Of a DNA stretch of 64,000 nucleotides, positions 23,696-56,194 are shown piece by piece. The translations under genes were made by a program, and so were the position numbers. The notes beneath the pieces are model-generated. The model was not told the DNA's origin, made no database searches, and was given only the letters and a program-made list of their open reading frames with translations. Source of the DNA: Candidatus Altimarinota bacterium (lineage in GTDB: Bacteria; Patescibacteriota; Gracilibacteria; BD1-5; UBA2023); the NCBI GenBank assembly GCA_028689205.1, contig JAQTWP010000005.1, forward strand, positions 1 to 64,000, written 5' to 3'. Each line of letters begins with the position of its first letter. Within the stretch, counting starts at the first letter, position 1.

Positions 23696-24886
23696 ATGAA
23701 AGCTTTATACGTTATTTTTTTTGTACCACTTACTTTAATTTTAGTTACTTCCTGTACAGTCCAAAGCGAAGATACTTGAAATAATGATTCGACAATAACA
23801 GAGCAAACTAGTATGGATAGTACTCAAAATATCTCAGTTTTTGTAGATTCTAAAGAACAAAAATGATTTGTTTCTTTGGATAACTGAACAAAGGTTGATA
23901 TTAATAAACTTAAGGAAAGTCCAGATATTATTACTACTGTAGATTGAGAAGATGATTGTGTAAGTAGTATTGTCAATTATGAAGAATCAATTCAAGACTG
24001 AGTTATATTAAAACCACAAACTTTAGACGTTACACTAGATCTTACTAAGATTGGTCAATGAGATGATCTCGCCAAATTAACACAATCTAGAATAGAAACA
24101 CTAAAAACTCTTGTAGATGGAGAATTATATGAATGAGTAAAAATGAATCCAGGAGATTCAATGATATTAAGATTCATATGAACAATTGATTATTGAATTA
24201 ATTGAAAGAATCTTCCATTAAATGACAAAATAAGTATCAAATTATCAGAAAAAGTTGGTAAATCTGTTAAGATTTCGAATATTGAATGTGTAAAAAATAA
24301 AAGAAAAAAACTTATTTATCTAAAAATTAATAGTGAAAATATTTCAATTGATAATTGAGATGATATAGTAAAAAAGAATAAAAATTATAATATCAAGAAT
24401 GAAGTTAATTCAACTCAAAAATTCGAAGTTGCAGATACTGATAGTTTGATAAATATTGTTACAAAAGAATTTGATATGAGATCAGAAAATGATAAATATG
24501 CTAAATGATCATATATTCTCGAATTCCTAGACCAATCAGATATACTAGATTCCAAAGTTTGAAATGTTAATACTTTTATTTTTACTGATGCTAATTTTCA
24601 ACTTCATCCTAATTTTTTGAAGAATTATGCTAATCCATATAATATAAAACTTGATGAAGTATGAGATTTTTCACCCGATGTATACAATGCTCATCCTCAA
24701 TCCTTTTCTAGTTTTTATAGATATCTTGCGACTGACCCGTATATAACTAGTATTAAACAAAAATGTGCTAAAAATAATTCTCTATATTTAATTGGAACTA
24801 AAAGCTGAACTAATAAATACTTTAATAATATTTTAGAGATTTTTTATACTAAACTACTTCCAAATTGTAAAATAATATTTAATTAA
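23696..24886 (+). CDS. Lipoprotein of the protease locus
   Basis: A 396-aa lipoprotein: signal 1-19 and lipobox ILVTSC with Cys20. The mature N-terminus is Ser/Thr/Asn-rich, then mixed alpha/beta. The middle (about 255-310) reads YILEFLDQSDILDSK...NTFIFTDANFQ, which resembles the strand-Asp-x-Ser strand and later TD strand of von Willebrand A folds; this is tentative. Four cysteines lie in the mature part. First of three closely packed genes (12-nt gap, then 1 nt), so probably a partner of the coiled-coil membrane protein and the protease. Confidence 0.85.
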
Positions 24887-24898
24887 CAAAAACAAAAA

Positions 24899-26746
24899 AT
24901 GATTGCAGAAATATTTCAGGAATGAGAAAACTACTTCCAAACTTATCTAAATGACGTTCTAAAACTTAGAGCAAAAAATCTAGAAAAATGACAACCTTTT
25001 AATACTGTTGACAAAGATATTCAAGATAGTGCTTATAATACGCTTATTTCTGATCATATTTCAGAATACAATCAGAAAAAACTATCAATTGAAAATGAAA
25101 TTAAAAAAGTCGAACTTACGATTAATAAAATCAATATTCAATATAATCAAAAAATAAAAGCTCTTGGTTTGTGAGATTCTTCTAATGCAACTCAGATAGT
25201 TGATGTTAAAAAAATGCTTGAAACGAATAAAAGTAAAATTCTTTCTCTAGAAAGTGAATTAAGAGATTTATTTAATGATTTGAATAGTATTAAGAATAAT
25301 TTTGATACTTGAATTAGACAAGCAACCAATCTACAACAAGAGATTTTTAATTCTCTTAAATTATATAGAAATAAATTAGATTTATTATTAACTTCTAATG
25401 ATAAAGAATTAAAAGATTATATTGAAGAAAGAAAAAAAGTTCTTCATGATGAATGTAATATTTTTTCAAAATCTTTAATCTCAAAACTTGATGAATATAA
25501 GGAAGCCTTGATAAGTGATTTAGAAATATATAGACAAAACAAACAAAAGGAATTTGATGATGTTTATAATATAAATGCTTATCTTAAAACATGAGTTAAA
25601 ATGGAAGAAAAAACATCTAAAATCAAAAGTATAAAAGACAAGATAGAAAATGTTAAAACTCATTTAGTAGATACTAATTCAAAAGTTTTTATAAAAAATA
25701 TTTCATGGCTTTTACTACTTTTACTAGTTTCTCTTTATGATTATATTTTCTTGAATAAAATATTTGTTGATATATTCGATGTTCAAGGTTGAGATCCACA
25801 AGGCCTAAAAGATATGCTTTTTGGTGTAATTTCTTGGCTTAATCTTCTATCCGGTTGAGTTCTTCTTCTTCTTGTATTCCTATATACAATGTGATCAAAA
25901 GTATATGAAAAATGATCAAAAATTGAATGAGTATTCATTAAAATGTTGCTTATTTTTATAGTTCTTTGTTTAGTTGTATTCAGTGTTGTAGATATTAAGT
26001 TGTGATGAAATTGAGAAATAATATATAAATTCGTACAAACAGAATGAGTATTTATAGAATTCATTCTAAGATTGCTTATGCTTCCAGTTTTACTTGTTTG
26101 AGATTTTATTTTATTAAAGATGATTATCTGGGAAGATTTTTATTTATGAGATATAATTTTTAAAATATTTCTTTCGCCTTTTTATCTTATATATCTAACA
26201 TTTCAACTTTTCGTAAGTACTTTTAATTATCTTACTTTGTGATTGTTAATTGAGAAAAAAAGAAAAAAAGTTCTTGAGTTAAATTTATTAAATGAGGAAA
26301 ATATCAAAAAATCAATAAATCCGAACATTTTATTTGATATTAATCTTGCTTGAATTATTTTGAATGAAAAATCAATTGAGCCTATGGATTGACAGTATAT
26401 TTCAACTGATTCATTAAGTAATACTCTACCAAGTATTTCAGAATGATTAAAGAATTCTTTCTCAGATTTAAGTAAAATAAATGATTTAGTCAAAACTATT
26501 CAAGTTGATATTAATGATAAAATTAGATGATATTCAGAGATAAGTGTTAAAGAAAAAGCTGACCAAAAAATAAAAATTGATCAACTTAAAACCGAACAAA
26601 CTAATTTTTTACAAAGTTATATAGATTCAAGAAGTAAATTAATAGCTAATCTTCAAACTTCTAATGAATTACTTAATGAAATACAATCTTCTCTAAAAAA
26701 ATGAATAACTAGCTGATATAAAAAATATATTCTATCAAACATATAA
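24899..26746 (+). CDS. Large coiled-coil polytopic membrane protein
   Basis: A 615-aa protein. Residues 1-255 are long Lys/Asn/Leu-rich heptads (coiled coil) with no signal. Five to six TM segments follow at about 258-450, including KNISWLLLLLLVSLYDYIF and a WEDFYLGDII loop. Residues 455-615 form a second helical or coiled-coil region ending in a basic tail. No known family recognised. Both long coiled-coil ends would face the same side if the TM count is even. Tightly coupled to the protease gene (1 nt gap), so it may scaffold that protein. Confidence 0.85.
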
Positions 26747-26747
26747 A

Positions 26748-28895
26748 ATGGCAAAACATATTGAAGAACAAAGTCCCTGGGTTAATGAAGAGTCCAATAT
26801 TGCTTCAGATTCCCTTTATGAAAGTAATATTGGTGAAATTGGTTATAATGATTATCAAATAGCTTCGAATAAAAAAACTATTAAAAATCCAATTTCATCT
26901 TCTCAACTTTGAGATCCAAGTACTACTACCAAAATTCCTTCAAGTTCTGTATGGAAAGAGTTTTTAAAATTCTTAGCTTTTTTGCTTCTGATAATTGGAA
27001 TTGTTTTTTTTATTGCTTATTTATTTAATAAAAACGCACCAACTACTAATTACAGATGAATTATCAAAAAAACTGATATTAACAAACTTAATTCAAAAGA
27101 TTATATTACCGAAGATATTGATGATGAATACTATGAAATAAATACAACTAATAAGGATATTATAAATAACAGCGCAGTTGAGAAGGATTCATTTTTTGAA
27201 TTACAAGCTGCACCTATAAATAATCTTCCAACAAATAGTTGTTCTTGAGCGGATGATTGGGATAAAAAAGCATTATGAGATAATGAATTCGTAGATGATT
27301 ATATTCAAAACAGTAAAAAAATTACAAAAGTAGCAATAATTGATACTTGAATTAATACGAATTTAATTGATTTTAAAGATAATATAGATACAAAAAATTC
27401 AATAAATATTGTAGAACCAAAAGAATCCATAGATGATAAAAATTGACATTGAACAAACATTGCTCTTATAATTCATAGATATGTAAGCACTACTAATTTT
27501 GTTATAATAAAAGCTAATTCAAAAGATAGTAAAAAAATATCATACATTGACACTATAAAATCTATTAATTATGCAATAAAACAAAAACCAGATGTTATTA
27601 ATATAAGTTTTGGTTGAGATATTAAAAAAATTAAACCTCTTCAAAATTCTATATCTAGAGCCAATTCTATTTGAATTATTATTGTAGTTTCTTGATGAAA
27701 TTCTAATTCCGATAAAATTAATCATTTCCCAACCGCATATTCTTGAGTGATAACTACATGAAGTTTTAATGATAAAAATTCAATTTCTGAATTTTCAAAT
27801 AAAACTTCTGATTTTAATTTTCCTGGAGAATGTATATCTACAGCCAATAATGAATTTGTTAACGGAAACAGTTATTCTGCACCAATTCTTTCTGCTACTA
27901 TATTAATGATTAAAATGTTTATTCCTGCAGGAACTTGAAATATTTATTATTCAGATTTAATGAAATCAAATAGTAATAATATAGGTTGATTATTAATTCT
28001 AAGTATTCCCAAATTATTGAATATTTCAGACGATAGTGATGAATATATCAAAAACTTAGAATGAATAAAAAAAGATATAAATAAAACGAGCTTATTTCTT
28101 GATGATTTTAAAGAAAGTATAACCATAGATTCATCTCTTGATTGATATGAAAAAGCTTTGAATACTTTCAAATCTCAATTCAATAAGACGCAAAACGATA
28201 TATTAACAAAATTATCAAGATTAAAAAAGATTTTCAATAAAAAATGAATTACTCTAAAAAACGATGATTTAATTATTGCTGAAATTAATAATGATTTAGC
28301 AGTTGTTAGGGCGTTTTTAGAGTGAGATAAAGTAATTCTAGATATAACATGAGAAAAAAAGCTAGCGCAAACTCTGTGAGTAGATTCTTGTATTGAAAAC
28401 ACCAAAAATATTAAGTGTTGAGAGGGTAGTGGTTCAATATCTAATAAATGTATGAATAAATTCGCTTGATGAAAAAATCTTGTTTGTTGAGTACTAGTTC
28501 CTATTATCAAAGCTTGAACTCAACTTCCTGCGGTATGAAGTTGAAAATATGTAACAATTCTTAATGATCAAGTTAATTTACCAATTTCTATTATTGAATG
28601 AGAAAGCTTTATTTCAAGAGATAATAAACAAATTTGAAAAGTTATCCTAGAAAAATTACCAAGGAAATCTGCCTGAGAAGCTTGATGAAATGTTAATTTT
28701 ATGATTGATTCAGCTTGAACTCTTTCTGTAAAAGTTATAGACATTAATGATAATAATAATGAAGTTCAATCAAGAATAGAAAAACTTCTAAGTACCGAAA
28801 GTTCTAATCAAATAAATTGAGATTTACTAAAAAATACAGAAAAAATAAATGAAATCCAGAATATTCTTGAATTATCCTTAATAAAACTTAATTAA
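26748..28895 (+). CDS. Membrane-anchored subtilisin-like protease fused to an Hsp70-type substrate-binding domain
   Basis: A 715-aa protein. A disordered N-terminus (1-70) precedes one TM (72-93). A peptidase S8 domain (about 190-395) has the full triad: Asp199 in VAIIDTG, His234 in NGHGTN, Ser375 in GNSYSAP, and oxyanion Asn318 in SGGN. A helical linker (430-515) follows. Residues 528-670 align by eye with the DnaK substrate-binding beta domain: VILDITGEKKLAQTLG, GVLVPIIKAGTQLP, DNKQIGKVIL and VNFMIDSAGTLSVKVIDIND. A ~30-residue insert holds cysteines 548, 557, 568 and 580. No Hsp70 ATPase domain is present. Fused function (substrate capture plus cleavage outside the cell) is inference. Confidence 0.88.
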
Positions 28896-28938: not shown

Positions 28939-28972
28939 AAAAAATTACTTTGTAAATCAAAGTAATTTTTTT
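28939..28972 (+). terminator. Intrinsic terminator of the protease operon
   Basis: A 10-bp perfect stem AATTACTTTG / CAAAGTAATT with a 5-nt loop, then a T-run. Confidence 0.9.
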
Positions 28973-38500: not shown

Positions 38501-40732
38501 TTAATTTCAAGAAAAAGTATAATTATTTAAACCTGGTTGTTTATAAAAAATAGATTTTGTCTGACAATTTTTTGGTGTTGTATAATAATTGAATCTTATC
38601 TCATTAGTTTGGGCAACTTCCGTATTAAGATAGAACTTGAAGAATGTATAATTTGGATTGGAATCATCAACAGAAATGCTGTTTCAGTATGTTTTATTAA
38701 GAGTACTTCACTTAGGTGTGAGTATTCTTACAAATTGTCTATTTTCTCATGCTCACTGAATACCCATGAGCCTCTGTCTTTCTGCTTCATCAGTAATTTT
38801 TAGTTCATTGAAGACCTGTTTTATTGAATCTCTAGTTGTTTCATTGAAGCTATGTCTTGATATTAGACTAAAATCGTTACTGACTTGACATCAAGTAGTT
38901 ATCACTGAATTAACATTGAAATCCCTATAAACATATCTGTCAGATTTGTTTCAAGATATTGATGTAAATACTGGATAAATCCAATTTCATTTATCTGTTT
39001 TCCAGTTTTCAATAATACCTAGGGAATCTATATATTTTTGGATTTTATCATCGCGAGAAGCAATAGGTATTTCTCCTGCAATTAAATTACTCAGGAATAT
39101 TTCAAGATATCAAGTAAAATCTTTTTTTTCAAATAATTTCTTTTCAAAATTTGCACTGAATTTGAAAAGTATATCTTTTGGTGAAATTACTTTTTCGAAT
39201 TTGTTTTCTACAAGAGTTGACATTATTAGAGAAAAATTCTTATCCGAAATATCTGTTCATATTCCATTCATACTAATTGGTCAATATTTTGCAAGTAATT
39301 CTTCTATAATTCATTGATTAATTGCAATTACAGTATCAATTGTTCATCAGCCAGCTTTTTCATAGAAAAAATTAATCTTATTAACGCTGTCTAGGAATAT
39401 TGGTGAATAATTAGCGTCCCTTAATCAATGATTAGGAGAAATTATATTAAGTCATTCTGGCGGAACTTCTTTATATGGAGTTAAGTGCCAATCATAATAA
39501 TAAATATCTTTTTTATCATAGGTTAAGATATTTCATTTATATAATTCAAGTGTAATAACGCTTCATGGAAAACCTCAATTTGCCCTTATTTCGTCCTTGT
39601 TTTGATTCAAGATAAAATATCTCATTGGTTTTGTATCTCATACCATAGTAAGTAACATTTCCTTGTTATTTATTGCAAAAGAAATGTATTTTTCATATTT
39701 GATAAGCAAATCTAGACTTGATTGGAATTTATTATCTAAAGATGGATTTCAAAGACTATCCACTTGAGAATAATAATAGATAACTTTTTTTAGATTTTCA
39801 TCAATTTTAATTAAATTATTAGTTTCTTTTTTGAATAATTCACTGAATTTAATTCAACTTAAACTGCTCAGGGGACTATTTTTATCTCATATTACTTTAG
39901 ATTTTTCAAATGAAAAATCTTCCCATATTAATGCTCAAATAACAGCCGTTTCAGATATTTTTTTACCTCATTTAATTATATTATTAGCTATTTTTATAGA
40001 GTTATTGCTATATAAAAAATTATTACCAATAATATTGGCTGGCATAAAAAGTAAATCAAGTTTCGTGAATTTTCACTTTATTTCTAAAGCTTTTTGTTTT
40101 AAGGCTTGCGAATCTCTAATGGTTTTCAGTCAGTAAATATCTTGATATCATTTTGTTACTTCTGATTGAATATAATTCTTATATCCAATTCACAGAAGTC
40201 ATAGAGAAGTTATAATTATACTTGCTATAATTGTTCAAATTGCTCATCTAGATAATCATTTTTTTATAATTACTTTGTTTGAATTATAGAATTTCCTTAT
40301 TCTTTGTTTTCTTTGAAGTGGTAGTCTATATATATCAGGATAAGTTGTTTTAGTAGGAATTATTTCTAGAAGCCTTATATCAACCATATTTCTTATAACA
40401 TATCATAGAGGTTCTATAATACTTAATGGATCAAATAATATTCTTTGTCTTTTTCTGTTTATAATTGCTAAAAGTGGTATTTTATTATGTTTCTTCTTAA
40501 TAATGTCTGAAAAATTTTCATTAGAAAGTTTCGATACTTTTAGTATTTTTTTTATTCTCAAATCAATTGAAGTTTTGAGTTCAAGATATATATCACTAAA
40601 AAGTTTAGTTTGATTTAATCTAAGAGCTTTGAGTTTGAATCTTGGAAAAAAAACCAATAAGTCTATTGGGTGGGCTTTTTCTCATAATTTTGGTCATGAA
40701 ATGTCATTTATTTTGTCTTTTTCTAATTCCAT
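38501..40732 (-). CDS. DUF4012 membrane protein
   Basis: A 743-aa protein. The first 145 residues are cytosolic; one TM (about 155-180) follows, then a large extracytoplasmic region matching DUF4012: PMRYFILNQNKDEIRANGGFPGSV near 335, then YYYDWHLTPYKEVPPEGL. It ends with a beta-rich part like those seen in cell-surface proteins. Start: the ATG at 40732 leads in frame through two TGA glycines into the body; TTG at 40657 is only an internal codon. Function unknown; DUF4012 proteins are thought to act at the cell envelope. Confidence 0.85.
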
Positions 40733-42029: not shown

Positions 42030-44768
42030 TTATTTATTATTAAGAGTCATTTTTACTATTTCAAGAACACCAGAAAGGACTTTATAAAGGCCTTCATCAT
42101 TAGTAGTATTTTTTCATGCTAAATCAAGTGTATCAGATAATATTGATTCAATACTAGCTTTTTCATCTTCATGAAAAAAACTTTTTTTGTCAATTACCAT
42201 TTCTTCCAAAGATTGTAAAGATAGTTCAGGAGAATTCAGAATTTTATTTCTATACTCAATTTTTTTTATACTTTCTAATGAATCACTTTCTCATCAAGAA
42301 TATATTGCTCTCATAATTTCCTCTTTTGATAATTCTCAATCAAGTATTCTTCTTATTTCTGCAAGTGATCTTTTTTTCTTAGGAGCCTGTAAACTTCTAG
42401 ATACTCTTAAAACTTCTTCTAATGTTGTAGAATAATCAACTGCTTTCAAAAATCAATCTTCTATCATAGAAGTCATTCCGAATTCACGTGCAAGATCTTC
42501 AATTTCTTTTGCTGTACCATTACTTATAACTAATTTTTTCAAGGTTTCATTTACGCATAATAGTTCATAAATTCCTATTCTTCATTTATATCATGTATAA
42601 TTACAATGATCACATCATATTCATTTTTTGAATTTTATTTTTTTATTTTTAAGTAATTCATCAAGATCTTCAATCATTACTCTGAAAAAATCCAGTACAT
42701 CATCTTTTGGTTTATATTCTTCTTGACACTGAGGACATATTTTCCTTACAAGTCTTTGTGCGATTATAGAAACCAATGTAGAAGATAACATAAATGGTTT
42801 AACTCAGAGATCTCCAAGTCTAGTTATTGATGAAGTTGTATCATTTGCATGTAGGGTTGTAAAAAGAAGATGTCATGTAAGTCACGCACCCATTGCAATT
42901 GATGCAGATTCTGAATCTCTCATTTCTCAATACATTATTATGTCTGGATCTTGCCTTAGTATTGATTTTAGAGCTTGATTATAACCAATTCATTGTTTTT
43001 TTCATTCAGAAATTTTAATTTGAATAACTCAATCTATTATATATTCTGGAGGGTCTTCTGCAGTAACAATATTAACTCACTCTTTATTTAGGTAATTAAT
43101 TGTAGAAAATAGTGTTGTAGTTTTTCAACTACCAGTTGGTCAAGATACTATAATAATTCATGAAGACATTGAAATAACTTTTTCATACTTCATCATTATA
43201 TTTTTACTCATTCATAATTGTTGGAATGTCTGAACTTCATCATTTTGTACTAGAAGCCTAATTACCATTTTATCTCAATAAAGAGTTGGTATTATAGAAA
43301 TTCTCAAATCTACATACTGATTTTTATCTTCATAAAAAACTCTAACTCTTTCATCATGTGTTGCAAAAGGTTTCCAAGCTTCAGAAAATTTAAAGTAATT
43401 TTTTACTGCACTTAATAACACACTTTTACTTTCTGCAGGAAATTCATTTAATTTTATAAGTACTCAATCTATTCTATATCTTACAGCCATTTTTTTTTCA
43501 AATGGTTCAATATGAATATCTGAAGCCCTTTGATCAATTCCAATTTTAATTATATTCACGAATGCATTTATGCTATCATTGCTTGAAAAACTTTTATTAC
43601 TTATACGAAGCATAGGTACTCATTCTTCTGCTTCTTCTTCTATAATTTCTGATTTATTATGAATAGAATTCTCTAGTTCCTTTTTTGAGTTATGTGAATT
43701 TTTTATAAATGTATGAATTTCATTTTCAATTGAAAGTCAGAAAATAATTTTTATTTTTTTATTTATATAAGGTATTCTTTCTTCAGATTTTTTTCATTCA
43801 TTTAATTTTTGGTTTTTGATTCTTTCGTATTTTTCAAATCTGTTTACCAATCAATTGCTTAACGAACTAAGATCTTCTCTTTTTGGATCTGATATTAAAA
43901 TTGTATAAGTAATTTCTTTTAATACTTCATTTTCAATTTTTCAATAAGGCACAAAACTTAACTTAAATAATTCATCTTTTTCAAAACTAAAAAAAAGATT
44001 AATATCCATATATCAAATATCTGGCTTTATCCTTGTTAGTGAATGTTGTTTTGCTAATGCTCTTGTTAAAACTTCGGCATTTGTTACTTTCAAATTATTA
44101 ATAAGAATGTCTCATATTTTTTTATATGATTTTCTTTGGTAGTGTAATACTTTATCTAAATTTTCTTGAGATATAAATCACTCTTTTATTAGAATTTCTC
44201 CAACTCTTTTATTAATGCTTCTTTGATAATCTATATTTTCTTTTAAAACATCTTTTGTAATAAATCTGCCACTTAATAATACTTCTCAAAATGCTCTATT
44301 TTCTCTATAATGGATTTTTAATGCATTATCAAGATTATCTTTTGATATTAGTCATTTTTCAACGAGTAAATCTCATAATTTTTTATAATTATTTTTTTGT
44401 ATCTGCAAAGCTTTATCTAAATTATCCTGTGATAAAAGTCATTTTTCACAAAGTAGATATCAAATTGATTTATTATTTGTATTTTGAATTTCTTTCGCTT
44501 TTAAAAGATTATCTTGTGAAATATGTCATTCCATTACAAGTATTTCTCAAATCGGAACATCTATTCATAATTCATTAGCTACTCTGATGAATTTATTGGG
44601 GTCTATAAATTGTTGTTCTATTAGAATTTGAAGTATTGTTTTTTTAACTCATCTTGAAAAAAGCTCTGTTTGAAATGATAAAGCTTTTCACATACTAATC
44701 TCAGAAATTACTCATTTTTCAATAAGTAATTCTCAGATTCTCATTTTTCTGTTTACTTCTATGGACAT
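42030..44768 (-). CDS. PilB/GspE-type pilus assembly ATPase with many MshEN-like repeats
   Basis: A 912-aa ATPase for type IV pilus extension. The first ~300 residues hold about six repeats of the form GxLLxxxGxISxDNLxxAL, the MshEN (c-di-GMP-binding) pattern; most PilB proteins have one or two. The motor has GPTGSGKTTT (541-550), Asp box, Walker B, GAGLTGHLLFTTLHAND (His box) and the zinc site CPQC...CDHC. A Ser/Lys-rich C-terminus of about 150 residues follows. Many catalytic glycines are TGA. Confidence 0.94.
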
Positions 44769-45914: not shown

Positions 45915-48251
45915 ATGAAAATAAAATATAAATTACCAATTTTATATGCTCTAATATGAGTTATAGTTACACTTGGACTAGTAAATATTTTTTCCAATTC
46001 TGAAAAAACTATTATAACTAATATTGAAGATCGTTTTATCCAAACAATAAATAATAAATCATCTGAGATTGATAAATTCCTTTATGATCAGCTTGTTTGA
46101 CTAAAGTCTCTTTCTCTAAATTCTACACTTCAACAATCTATTTCTGATTATCAAAAAAACAAGAATATTTCTTCTATAAATATAGAAAACATATTAAAAG
46201 ATTTCCTTATAATTAATAAGACTTTTGATTATGCAGAGATAATTGATGCTAGCTGAACCGTATTGAATTGAAATGAAATATTATGAAAAGAAAATGTAGA
46301 TAAGTCTTTTGTTGTAAGAGAATCTATAATTAAAAGAATATGAAAAAGTGATGCTGGAGAAAAATATTATCAAGACATTACAAGTGAAATTAAAAATAAT
46401 TCAGTTGGATTATCATATATTATTGAGGATTTAGCTAGGGATTCAGATGGCAATACCTATCTTACTTATATAGTTCCGGTTTTGAAAAGTAATGAAAATA
46501 ATGAAATTAAACTTATATGAATAATTAAAGCCAGATTATCAATTGAGAATATTTCTAATATTTTCGTTGATTTACCTAATTTAGGAAATTCACTTAAAGC
46601 CTATATATATAATCCAAAATGAGAAATTATATCTTCTTTAGATAGAAATAATTATCTTACAAAATTAAGTAATATAAATGCTTCACAAGATAATATAATT
46701 AAAAAAACTCTTGTTCAAGAAGAAGTTCTAGATTGAGATAGTGTTGTTGCAGTTTATAAAAATATGAAAGGATATAAATCTTTTTCTTGATTGTGATGGA
46801 CTATAAAAATGACTCAATCAAAGAATGAATTATTCCAATCTCTTGCCTGATTAAAACAAACTTCAATATACGTTGTCGCATTTATTGTATTTTCTGTAAT
46901 GTTTTTAGCTGCGATAATACAATGGCAATTTATTAATCCTCTTAATAGATTACTAGGGAAAATACGTAAATTCTCAACAGGAGATGATAATGTAGTAATT
47001 GATATTGAGAGCTCAGATGAAATATGAGTTCTAGCATGAGCCTTCAATGATATGATTTACAAAATAAGAGAAAAAACAAAAATACTTAATGAATATAAGA
47101 ATGTTATTGATGCAACTAGTCTTGTGTCAAAAGTTGATCAAAGTTGAAATTTTATATATGTTAATGATATTTTTTGTAATAGTGCAGGATGTGAATTAAA
47201 AGAAATTATTGGGCAACCTCATCAAATAATAAGGCATCCAGATATTTGACCAGAAATATTTAAAGATATTGAGAAATCAATGAAAGCTAAAGAAATATGG
47301 AAATGAGTAATGAAAAACAGAAGAAAAGATGAAAGTGAATATTGGCTTCAATCTGTAATTGCACCAATTTTGGATATGAACAATAATATTGTTGAAATGA
47401 TACTTATTGAAACAGATATTACAGAACTTGAAAAAACTAAACAACAACTAGAAGTTTCATATAATAAACTTCAAGAATCGACAGATGAATTAGTTACTAA
47501 AGAAAGAATTTCAAAAGAATTCGAACTTGCGACTAAGATCCAAGAAGATTTTATGCCTAGACCTTGAGAATTTGACATTGAATGAGTTGAAGTTCATTGT
47601 TGACTAACGTCTGCAACAGAAATCTGATGAGATTTATACGATATCGTAAAAAGCAAGGAAGATCCATCTAAAACAATTTTTTATATATGAGATGTTACAG
47701 GCCATTGACTTATAGCTTGAATTATGATGGCAATTTGTAATTCTCTAATATATAGCCTTGCTCAAAGTTGAAAAAATTCAATTAGAGATATTATTATAAA
47801 ACTTAATAATACATTATTTCATAAACTACCAAGTAAAGTATTTATTACTCTTCTGCTTCTTCAATATGATTCAGCAACTAATAAATTATCTTACGCTTGA
47901 GCTTGACATGAAAGACTTCTGATATATCGTAAAAAGATAGATGAGATAGAAGAAATTAAAACTTGATGAAGTGCAATTTGAATGTTTGCAGATGCTACAA
48001 ATGATGTAAAAGTCAATGAACTTAATCTTGAATCGTGAGATATTGTTCTTATGTATACTGACTGAATCCCAGAAGCTCGCAATCCAGATGAACAATTTTA
48101 TTGAATGGAAAAATTCAAACAAAGTTTCAAAAGTAATGCACATAGGAATGTCCAGGCAATGTATGAATGAATACTTAAAGATCTTTATGATTTCATCAAC
48201 TGAGCAGAAATTCTTGATGATATAACATTTTTTTTAATAAGGAAAAAATAA
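45915..48251 (+). CDS. Membrane PAS-PP2C (RsbU/SpoIIE-like) phosphatase
   Basis: A 778-aa sensor phosphatase. TM1 about 7-27, extracytoplasmic Cache-like sensor to about 315, TM2 317-340, HAMP (NPLNRLLGKIRKFSTG), PAS (about 390-505, with IGQPHQIIRHPDIGPEIF), a coiled coil, and a SpoIIE PP2C domain from about 545. The Mg2+ site is GGDLYDIV (about 570) and GDVTGHGLIAGIMMA. It should reactivate the STAS protein when the sensor binds its unknown ligand. Confidence 0.95.
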
Positions 48252-51530: not shown

Positions 51531-53129
51531 ATGAATTTTCTTAAAAACAATAATAATTTTAAATTATCTGCATTTACCCTAGTTGAATTAATAGTGGTAA
51601 TAGTTATTCTAGCTATATTATCCACTATAGCATTTCTATCATTTAATACCTATTCATCTTCTGCAAGAGATTCATTAAGAGTTACAAGTATTTCTGATAT
51701 CCAAAAATGATTGGAGCTATACAATCTTAATGCATGAAATTTTCCCCAACCAGAAAATATAAGTTGAACTTGAGTAATTAATTGAATTACATTGAATTAT
51801 GTCTGAGAGATATCAAATTTAATATCAAGAAAAATTAATATTTCATCTTCTCCAAAAGACCCACTTTCTAATAATGATTATATTTATTGAACAACTTTTG
51901 ATTATAAGAATTATCAAATAGCAACAGTTTTAGAAAACTCTCAAACAAATAATAAAATAATAGAATTAACTTATGCGGATAACTGAAACAGGGCAAAAGT
52001 TAGTTGAAATTACAATTGACTTATTAAATTCAGCTCTTGAAGTATAAAATATATAATTAATCTTCCAGGTCTTATATTCAATAGTTGATGAACAATTGAT
52101 ATTATTAATCAAGAACCTTATTTCATAATTAATAATTATGATAATTTACCATATAAATTGACTTCTAATAGTATTATTAATAATAAAACTAAAATTGAAA
52201 CAATTAAGGAATTAACTTGAAAAGATGTTATTCTAACTTGAGTTATAATTAATGAAACTCAAGATCAATTAGATTATTTATCTAATTTACTTTGATATGA
52301 TAAAATCTTGGTTTGAAAGAAAATTTTTTGAGAAAAATATATTATGACCATAGTTAATCTAAAAAAATTATGAATTTATTATTGATATCCAAGTTCACTT
52401 AATAATGTTTCAAATTGATATCAACTTGATAAAGTTGTCAATGATCTTAATAAATTTGACACTATAATACTCTGAGAATGATTAGAAAAAATATGACATT
52501 CTGATCATATTAATACGCAGAATATTTTATCTTGATGAACAGATTGGTATGGTACGCGGCAATGATATAAATGAGAGCCGTATTGATATATATCATTAAT
52601 GCAATCTACGTGATCAATTTTTACTTCAGTTGATGAATGGAAAGCTTTATGAATTAAATGAATATTTTTAGATGAAGCTTGATATGATTATCTAATTCCA
52701 ACTATTAGCTCAATTGAAATAAATGCTAGAATTCATCAAAACGATGTTATAAATTATATTCATCAGAAATGATTAAAAATTATTATAAATTCATGGAATG
52801 TAGATGATGTTTTTTGAACTCTTAATTGAGAGGCTATATCTACTATTAATTCAAATGATTCATACTTAATGGAAAGCTTTGTTTATAATTGGAATGTAGC
52901 TTGATTCTATGATTATGATAATCAATTAATAAAAATAAATAGTGCAAAAAATTATAAAAATAATTTATGAATTAAGCTTTACTGTGTTTGATTATTACCT
53001 AATTTTATAGATATAACTCAAGATAGAATCAATACAATGTATTCTAAGTCTTTATCAAGTTGTGATTATATTCAAATTACAGAAAAAACTTTTTGAGCAA
53101 CCAATCCTATTCTTAATTCTTATTATTAA
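51531..53129 (+). CDS. Type IV prepilin-like protein with a C-terminal glycosidase-like barrel
   Basis: A 532-aa protein. The N-terminus is a prepilin: SAFTLVELIVVIVILAILS (residues 13-31) with the F-T-L-V-E core and Glu5, then a pilin-like head up to about 170. From about 278 on, a (beta/alpha)-barrel-like part begins LGIYYGYPSSL and has DTIILGEGLEK, KGIFLDEAGYDY and a GLKIIINSWNVDDVFG strand; this matches spherulin-4/GH114-type putative glycosidases. Possible catalytic Glu/Asp in FLDEAG. A pilus- or surface-displayed enzyme is inference. Confidence 0.85.
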
Positions 53130-53137
53130 TATAACTT

Positions 53138-56100
53138 ATGAATTTTAAAAGAGATTACATTTTTAAAACAAAACAAGCTCCTTTAAATTCACTTTTTTTA
53201 AAAAAGAATGAATTTAAAGGTTTTACAATAATTGAGCTTACTATTGTAATGGTTATTACTTCTATATTAACTACAATTTGATTTATTGTTTATTCTTGAC
53301 ATCTTTCTTCTGCAAGAGATGCTAATCGTAGTATGGATATGGAGAGTCTTATAGGTTGACTTAGAACATCTAAAATTCGTAATTTCACATACCCTAAATT
53401 AAATGATTATTTTTCAATTGCTAATATGTGAAGCTGATATGTAATGCAATGAAAACTAGATGATAAAATTGATATTGAATGAATTAATAATGTTCAATCA
53501 GACCCTTTACATGAAATTAAATATATATATTCTACAACGAGTAATTGAAGGAATTTTCAAATATGAATGACTTTAGAAAATTGATGAACTCCAATTGCTT
53601 TTGTTGATTGAGATTATAAAACTATTACAAAAAGAATGTTTCCTTCATTAATATTTGCATTAAATTGAAGTTGAATTCTTGATGTTCAGTCTTGAGTTGG
53701 TTCTTATACTTCCTATAGAGATTATTTCGTAGTTAATAAATGAACTTACAATCTTCCATATGATTTTAAAACAGGAAATCCAATTAAGACAGCATTAAAT
53801 TTTGATAACATAGTTAATGAGGATTGAGTAATAATTACATGAGCTAATAGTTATAAAAGTTGTGATGAGATTTATAATGCAAATAAATCTATGTGACCCT
53901 GAGAATACCAATTAATGTCATCGCCCTATATAATGAGTGATACTATATGTTTTTATATATCACCACTTCTAGTATTTGATGAAAATACTAATCTTTCTAC
54001 TCTTGATGACACTACTTTAAAAAATCTATTTTCTGAAACATTAACCTGAGTTGTTGAGAACACGCTAACAGATAAATGGGATATTAATTGATGTAGTTGA
54101 GGCTTAATGAATGTTAATACGTGAACCTTTTTATGATGAAATCAAACATTATCTAATATAGTGTTATCATCAAATACAATATATAAAGTTCCAGCAGGGA
54201 ATTATAATTTAATATGAAACACACAATTAAATACCTGACATATATCTTTTGCAAGTTGAAGTAGTTGTATTTGATTAATTTGAGCTTGAGTTTGATCTAC
54301 AATTTTCACTACTAATTTAACTTGAGGTTGAATATCTAATTACGATTGAGTTATTAATGCAAGATATACAAAAAATATAATTGTAAGCTGATTATCTCTT
54401 ACTAATTCAAGAATAATTAATAGATATAATTATTGAATTATGGTAAGTAATTGAGCTAATAATCTTACTTTGAAAGATATTAATTCATCTAATTCTCAAT
54501 CATGATGAATATCACTTGATTCATATAATGATCATAATTATATGTATAATATAAACTCTTTTAATAATGGTCAGAATTGAATTACAATTTCATATTATGC
54601 GAATTACAATAAATTAGATAATATAAAGAGTTATTCTAATTCCTGAGCATGATTATTGGTTTCTACAAGTGTCGGTAATAATTTATTTAATATAAATACT
54701 TATTCTAATTGAAATTATTGAATTAATTTAGATTCATCTTCTAATTTAAATACATTAGATAATATAAAAAGTTATCTTAATTGATGAAACGGTATTTGAA
54801 TAACTTATAATTCAGACCAGAATACAATAAGTTGAGCACTTAGTTATTCTAATAATTTGAACTGAATACTTATTGATTCTAACTGATCATGAAATATCTT
54901 GAATAATGTTAATTCTTATTCAAATAGTCAAATATGAATCATCTTAGATTCTACTAAAAACACTAAGATTAATAATTCAATAATTTATTCAAATTGAAGT
55001 GATGGAATTAATATTTTCTCTTGAATATCAAATACATTAAGTTGAATAACAACTTATTCAAATTGAAATAATGGTGTTAATATATATTTTTGAATTACAA
55101 ATACATTTAGTTGAATTATAAGTTATTCTAATGTTTCTAATTGACTTTATATGGATACTAGTAGTTGAAATATTATAAATAATACCACATCTAATTGAAA
55201 TGGTAATGCTTGAATTTTACTTAATAAATCAACATATAATACATTAAGTTGATTAATTACTTATTCTAATAGTAATAACTGAATTAATTTTTATAATGTA
55301 AGTCAATATAATAATGCTAACAACATTACTTCTTATTTAAATACCTGAGCTTGAATTAATTTTGATAACGGATCTTTATCTAGTAACTATAATTCAATAA
55401 ATAAATTCAATTCATATTCAAATACTAATTGAATTTATATTTGATCATCTTCTTATAATAATATATTTAATTGAAATATTTATAATAACATTCAAAGATG
55501 AATATTTATTTATTCTATATGAAATATTTTAAATAATTTGAATATATATAATAATAATACCTCAAATACTCTTTATTATGGTTCTATTGAAATCGATGCT
55601 TCTTCAAACGGTAATAAATATAATTCATTAAATAATTTGAATATTTATAATAACTCAAAAAATTGAATGGTTATAAATGCTAATAGCGACAGTAATTTAT
55701 TTAGTAATTTATCAATATTTAATAATTCTTGAGCATGAGTGTATGTTTCATCTTGAGTTGGAACATGAACATTTAATAATTTAAATACCTATAATAATAT
55801 TAGTTGAGTAGAAGATTACGCAAATGTACTTACTAATAAATATTATTGAACTTTTAAATATTTTTGAAATGATTGAAATTCTAATATTACATATCTTAAA
55901 GTATGAACTTTGTCTACATTATGATTCTTAGATTGAACAATAAATACAACATGAACAATGTCTTGTGATTACCATAATAATCCTAACAATGCTTTTTATT
56001 ACTGAGCTAGCTGTATCAATAGATGATCTATTTGAAGTCTTGTAGCACCAATTTTGAATTATACTTATTGAACTTTAACATCCAAACAACAAAGACCAGT

Positions 56101-56194
56101 TAAATGGAATTGAACAGCTTGGGAATTATATTGAACAGCTTGAGTTGATTATAATACATGAAGTTATATATGACAATGGTTGATAATTAAATAA
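53138..56194 (+). CDS. Type IV prepilin-like protein with a large beta-helix
   Basis: A 1018-aa protein. Prepilin signature KGFTIIELTIVMVITSILTT (about 28-47) after an unusually long leader of 27 residues. The pilin head (60-250) is followed by a right-handed beta-helix (about 324-905) of ~22-residue turns rich in Asn/Ser/Gly (NSYSNSxxGIxxDSSxxNxxxN), as in NosD/pectate-lyase PbH1 repeats. A short C-terminal domain ends YIGQWLIIK. It overlaps no gene and begins 8 nt after the preceding pilin. Adhesin or glycan-binding role is inference. Confidence 0.9.

Follow-up and report, generated by a model that had tools for sequence, protein, structure and literature searches.

A single gene in the 64,000-nucleotide stretch of DNA analysed here (the window; contig C8 of a source genome of 1.25 Mb in 16 contigs) encodes a protease of the S8 (subtilase) family that carries, in the same polypeptide, a domain related to the substrate-binding domain (SBD) of Hsp70 chaperones. 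The same fusion occurs end to end in one further genome, G092, which belongs to another family (353 genomes of the class searched, among the matches listed). It is apparently an undescribed chaperone–protease hybrid. No description of an S8–Hsp70 SBD fusion was found in the open-access literature searched, and its novelty is provisional.

Gene and genetic code

The reading frame coincides exactly with the one given in the preliminary description of this DNA (Table 1). It contains 35 TGA codons and is open only when TGA is read as glycine. Elsewhere in the source genome, on contig C15, lies one ordinary DnaK gene (HSP70 E 2.0e-237) with in-frame TGA codons of its own. An AT-rich hairpin followed by a run of T residues is likely to be the transcription terminator of the protease gene; it is missing from a consensus terminator scan, which demands G-C pairs.

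Table 1. Features of the fusion gene and its upstream partners in the window.
Feature	Position	Strand	Remarks
Lipoprotein-like protein, upstream	23696..24886	+	396 aa with lipobox LVTSC; orthologue, L060 7542-8900
Coiled-coil protein, upstream	24899..26746	+	615 aa; about 5 TM segments; counterpart L060 5937-7520
S8–SBD fusion protease gene	26748..28895	+	715 aa under code 25
Single TM segment, residues ~75-93	26970..27026	+	hydropathy; one also in G092 orthologue
Cys165	27240..27242	+	G092 counterpart, Cys158; may pair with Cys362 (putative)
Peptidase S8 domain, residues 192-397	27321..27938	+	triad D199/H234/S375
Cys362	27831..27833	+	G092 counterpart, Cys377
Helical hairpin between S8 and SBD, residues ~430-498	28035..28241	+	predicted, pLDDT about 74-89
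Four-Cys insert, Cys548/557/568/580	28389..28487	+	at DnaK L1,2 arch site; 4/4 Cys in G092
Hsp70 SBD-beta-like domain, residues 575-690	28470..28817	+	Pfam, NCBIfam, Kar2 match, Foldseek
C-terminal helices, residues ~667-715	28746..28892	+	candidate short lid; predicted, weak
Putative transcription terminator	28939..28971	+	AT-rich hairpin then T run, 3' of protease gene; z -4.16

A membrane-anchored subtilase

Residues 192-397 match Pfam Peptidase_S8 with an E of 2.9e-27 (96.2 bits against a cut-off of 21.8). Its catalytic residues lie in the motifs IIDTG (Asp199), NGHGT (His234) and NGNSYSAP (Ser375) and align with those of other subtilases and of one solved subtilase; the same triad motifs are present in the G092 orthologue. 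Pfam, the alignments and hydropathy all agree with the complete triad behind a single TM segment that had been read from the letters at the outset. By its domain and intact triad the window protein is a subtilase, and proteolytic activity is predicted. The nearest solved structure, an intracellular serine protease (7y6m), shares the catalytic domain and triad. Unlike other S8 subtilases, the fusion combines an N-terminal TM anchor with an Hsp70-type accessory domain, and a Pfam search of the window protein recognised no known subtilase propeptide domain.

Among NCBIfam S8 families the best match is the mycosin model (MycP, TIGR03921), at 66.8 bits for the window protein and 80.3 bits for G092, far below the equivalog cut-off of 278.75 in both cases. 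Mycosins are membrane-anchored subtilases, but in the fusion the anchor is N-terminal and an SBD is present; no type VII secretion genes were found among the fusion-gene neighbours examined.

The S8–SBD part probably sits in an oxidising extracytoplasmic space. The G092 orthologue has a strongly basic N terminus ahead of its TM segment and, since the basic flank of a TM segment stays inside (the positive-inside rule), the N terminus would be cytoplasmic and the S8 and SBD domains would lie outside the membrane. Each of the six cysteines of the window protein has its aligned counterpart among the six of the G092 protein, a pattern that would fit disulfides. Adjacent DsbA-like (Thioredoxin_4) and VKOR genes, an oxidative folding pair, were located in the source genome at L261 and L262 (G000:C10:44232-45197). 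The proposal that the Cys-rich insert points to an oxidising site is favoured by the conserved cysteines and by this pair, and is qualified by G092, in which a DsbA-like match is present but VKOR was not found.

The Hsp70-type substrate-binding domain

Several profiles place the C-terminal tail in the Hsp70 family. The Pfam HSP70 match (E 4.2e-8, 32.3 bits, residues 575-690) exceeds the curated cut-off of 20.6, and the NCBIfam DnaK model TIGR02350 matches the window protein with an E of 3.2e-11. Among solved structures, the SBD of yeast BiP/Kar2 matches the tail best (E 1.5e-9), and an HMM made only from the DnaK SBDs of the lineage scores it at 41.6 bits, against 11.0 for the best of 2000 shuffles. 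Identity to DnaK in the SBD is about 24-30%. The HSP70 profile aligns only at positions 395-508 of 599, which correspond to the substrate-binding beta domain, and no Hsp70 ATPase domain (NBD) was found in the full translated fusion ORF, as the preliminary description had stated. That description had also let the similarity run segment by segment over residues 528-670. The similarity itself stands, at about residues 575-690, whereas the start at 528 was too early and the wording overstated, because residues 548-580 are a Cys-rich insertion with no Hsp70 counterpart; residues from about 529 to 546 may be strand beta-1 of the SBD. The SBD-alpha lid is not recognisable in full, and what is seen are short predicted C-terminal helices with low alignment support.

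An AlphaFold2 model of residues 425-715, made with 35 aligned viral DnaK SBDs, has a mean pLDDT of 68.8, with a confident helical hairpin, SBD strands at 74-90 and the insert below 50. In a Foldseek search of the PDB all 50 rows listed were Hsp70 proteins (E 7e-7 to 6e-6), but the TM-scores were modest, reaching 0.56 at most when normalised to the target, and rmsd values ran from 4 to 13 A. This agreement with the DnaK SBD is partly circular because DnaK rows were in the input alignment. A single-sequence model, made without an alignment, reached a pLDDT of only 41 and was uninformative, so the fold assignment rests mainly on the sequence profiles.

The roles of DnaK residues in the peptide pocket and in NBD contact were taken from the literature (PMC8215388), with the numbering anchored on the source genome's own DnaK. 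Positions Q433, T428, P419, G482 and L484 are kept; I438 (Ile/Phe in the fusions) and V486 are kept or swapped for similar hydrophobic residues; V436 is Leu in both fusions, and A429 is Ile/Met. At the NBD contacts K414/N415/D481 the window protein has A/G/A and G092 has K/G/Y, so that N415 is Gly in both and the Hsp70 residue set is absent, although position 481 varies among the DnaKs of the lineage too. The ATPase contacts have thus been lost in part, while a hydrophobic cleft remains. The insert, at about residues 548-580, takes the place of the L1,2 arch over the peptide cleft. Judged from these substitutions, the cleft would be shallower and the arch bulkier, as in HscA. The domain resembles Hsp70, DnaK and HscA in its sequence profile, in the fold of the aligned part and at several pocket positions, and departs from them in the missing NBD, the four-Cys insert, the changed N415 and D481 positions, the lack of a recognisable full lid and the attached protease.

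Distribution and gene cluster

The G092 fusion (731 aa, L060 3739-5934, 61 TGA codons) is 32% identical to the window protein, aligns with it over residues 99-708 of the latter and matches Pfam S8 with an E of 1.2e-38 (133.6 bits). The absence of C-terminal similarity in orthologues, named in the preliminary description as a refutation, did not occur: the similarity is retained here, and the HSP70 match of the G092 protein (7.9e-15) is stronger than that of the window protein. Both domains score over the curated cut-offs in both proteins. Identity between the two proteins is highest in SBD-beta (38%), followed by the S8 domain (36%), and is 26-33% elsewhere. Profile searches gave no third fusion, either among the matches listed for the class or in 380 sampled genomes of the phylum (E <= 1e-30, at most two candidates scored per genome), which leaves two known members; within this scope a diverged member could escape. 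No SBD shares an ORF with the ordinary subtilases checked in the class (L004, L005, L032-L038 and others). On viral contigs, every ORF behind the 80 SBD matches gave an NBD match as well, and no SBD was present in any of the 81 subtilase ORFs; plasmid and phage records held S8 or DnaK matches only separately. In the S8 tree the fusions sit on long branches with no firm placement. In the SBD tree they group together (SH-aLRT 97), yet on very long branches.

Both genomes share the order lipoprotein, coiled-coil TM protein, protease. In the window the coiled-coil gene ends 1 bp before the protease gene, and the lipoprotein gene ends 12 bp before the coiled-coil gene. The lipoproteins share 25% identity across 310 aligned residues (E 4.7e-10), with a score of 47.0 bits where shuffles gave at most 24.6. 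Strong matches to the lipoprotein profile occur in the two fusion genomes only; the weak, short matches in 16 other genomes (best 3.0e-6) look like signal-peptide or low-complexity similarity. The coiled-coil partners are alike in position and layout; the window's partner gave no profile match and no significant pairwise match to L060 5937-7520. For the latter protein, an EMC3/TMCO1 identity was set aside (18.6 bits against a cut-off of 27.1). The flanks differ, with GatB and a MazG-like protein in the source genome and RpoC (recognised by eye, without a profile) and an SNase-domain protein in G092.

Proposed mechanism and alternatives

We favour, with belief and doubt about evenly balanced, an ATP-independent extracytoplasmic protease in which the SBD clamp captures extended hydrophobic segments and the S8 domain cuts them nearby. 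The N-terminal TM segment would anchor the enzyme with both domains facing outside the membrane. Its targets would be extended hydrophobic stretches in polypeptides that are unfolded or misassembled; the clamp would bind these without ATP and keep them close to the S8 active site, where they would be cut. A loop stapled by putative disulfides may take the place of one flank of the arch that covers the peptide. The protease probably works with the upstream lipoprotein and coiled-coil membrane protein. The SBD of Hsp70 normally relies on ATP-driven coupling to the NBD; a clamp without an ATPase partner would therefore bind at equilibrium, with no cycling. Because V436L and Ile/Met at 429 make the pocket shallower than in DnaK, the clamp may be a poor general trap for unfolded protein, and the insert at the arch could block or restrict the cleft. 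HtrA/DegP, in which an extracytoplasmic protease that needs no ATP is joined to a peptide-binding PDZ domain, offers an analogy only, as its protease fold and binding domain are unrelated to those of the fusion; neither a trypsin-like protease nor a PDZ domain was matched by Pfam in the window protein at E up to 10.

More tentatively, and with somewhat less than even confidence, the redox-stapled, ATPase-free Hsp70 clamp could be the substrate receptor of a subtilisin in a lipoprotein/membrane/protease complex, which would constitute a new class of chaperone–protease. If this is true, the SBD of Hsp70 is able to evolve on its own as a separate domain. A natural protein that kept the clamp, dropped the motor and attached a protease offers a ready way to test whether the clamp can act by itself as a peptide receptor. 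Such a protein would also add an apparently undescribed combination to the extracytoplasmic quality-control or predation enzymes of candidate-phyla bacteria that use code 25. Published work describes Gracilibacteria and Absconditabacteria as dependent on a host or as predators (PMC8080830, PMC11452946), and a part for the fusion in such a way of life, as the preliminary description proposed, is conceivable.

The main rival to capture and cutting, possible but rather unlikely in our judgement, is that the SBD is a docking module that holds one specific segment of a partner (the lipoprotein, the coiled-coil membrane protein or a single client), in the manner of HscA with IscU, thereby tethering the protease in a complex or marking one substrate. 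The bulky arch (Ile/Met at 429) and the shallower pocket (Leu at 436) are reminiscent of HscA, for which a single client is known (PMC8215388), the four-Cys insert could narrow specificity, and the lipoprotein family is convincing only in the two fusion genomes; against this, the coiled-coil partners show no recognisable sequence conservation. We consider it improbable that the SBD regulates the protease in cis, binding the protein's own juxtamembrane segment or an activation peptide and so holding the enzyme inactive until another peptide competes for the clamp, a reading suggested by the lack of a known propeptide domain in Pfam and by the conservation of a juxtamembrane stretch of roughly 95 residues (31% identity between the window protein and G092). 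That the SBD is a relic fold, a structural element without peptide binding, would agree with its far divergence from DnaK and its replaced arch, but is very improbable given that no other part of the protein is as well conserved as SBD-beta, which still has Gln433, Thr428 and the hydrophobic pocket. An assembly or translation artefact joining two genes, conceivable for a recoded genome in 16 contigs, can be dismissed: the fusion is real because the independent and distantly related G092 has the same protein, with the same domain order, in the same three-gene cluster.

Other observations in the two genomes

The gene adjoining the G092 fusion (L060 2604-3713) encodes a protein with two TM segments and a staphylococcal nuclease domain (5.2e-22), which may be another enzyme of degradation at the surface. 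In the window, a Type II/IV secretion ATPase (T2SSE, 8.6e-104) is encoded at 42030-44768, with a DUF4012 protein nearby (38501-40732), and a HAMP-PAS-SpoIIE phosphatase protein at 45915-48251. Two adjacent proteins (51531-53129 and 53138-56194) bear N-terminal methylation (pilin-like) motifs, and the second of them, of 1018 aa and with 95 TGA codons in its gene, contains a right-handed beta-helix region.
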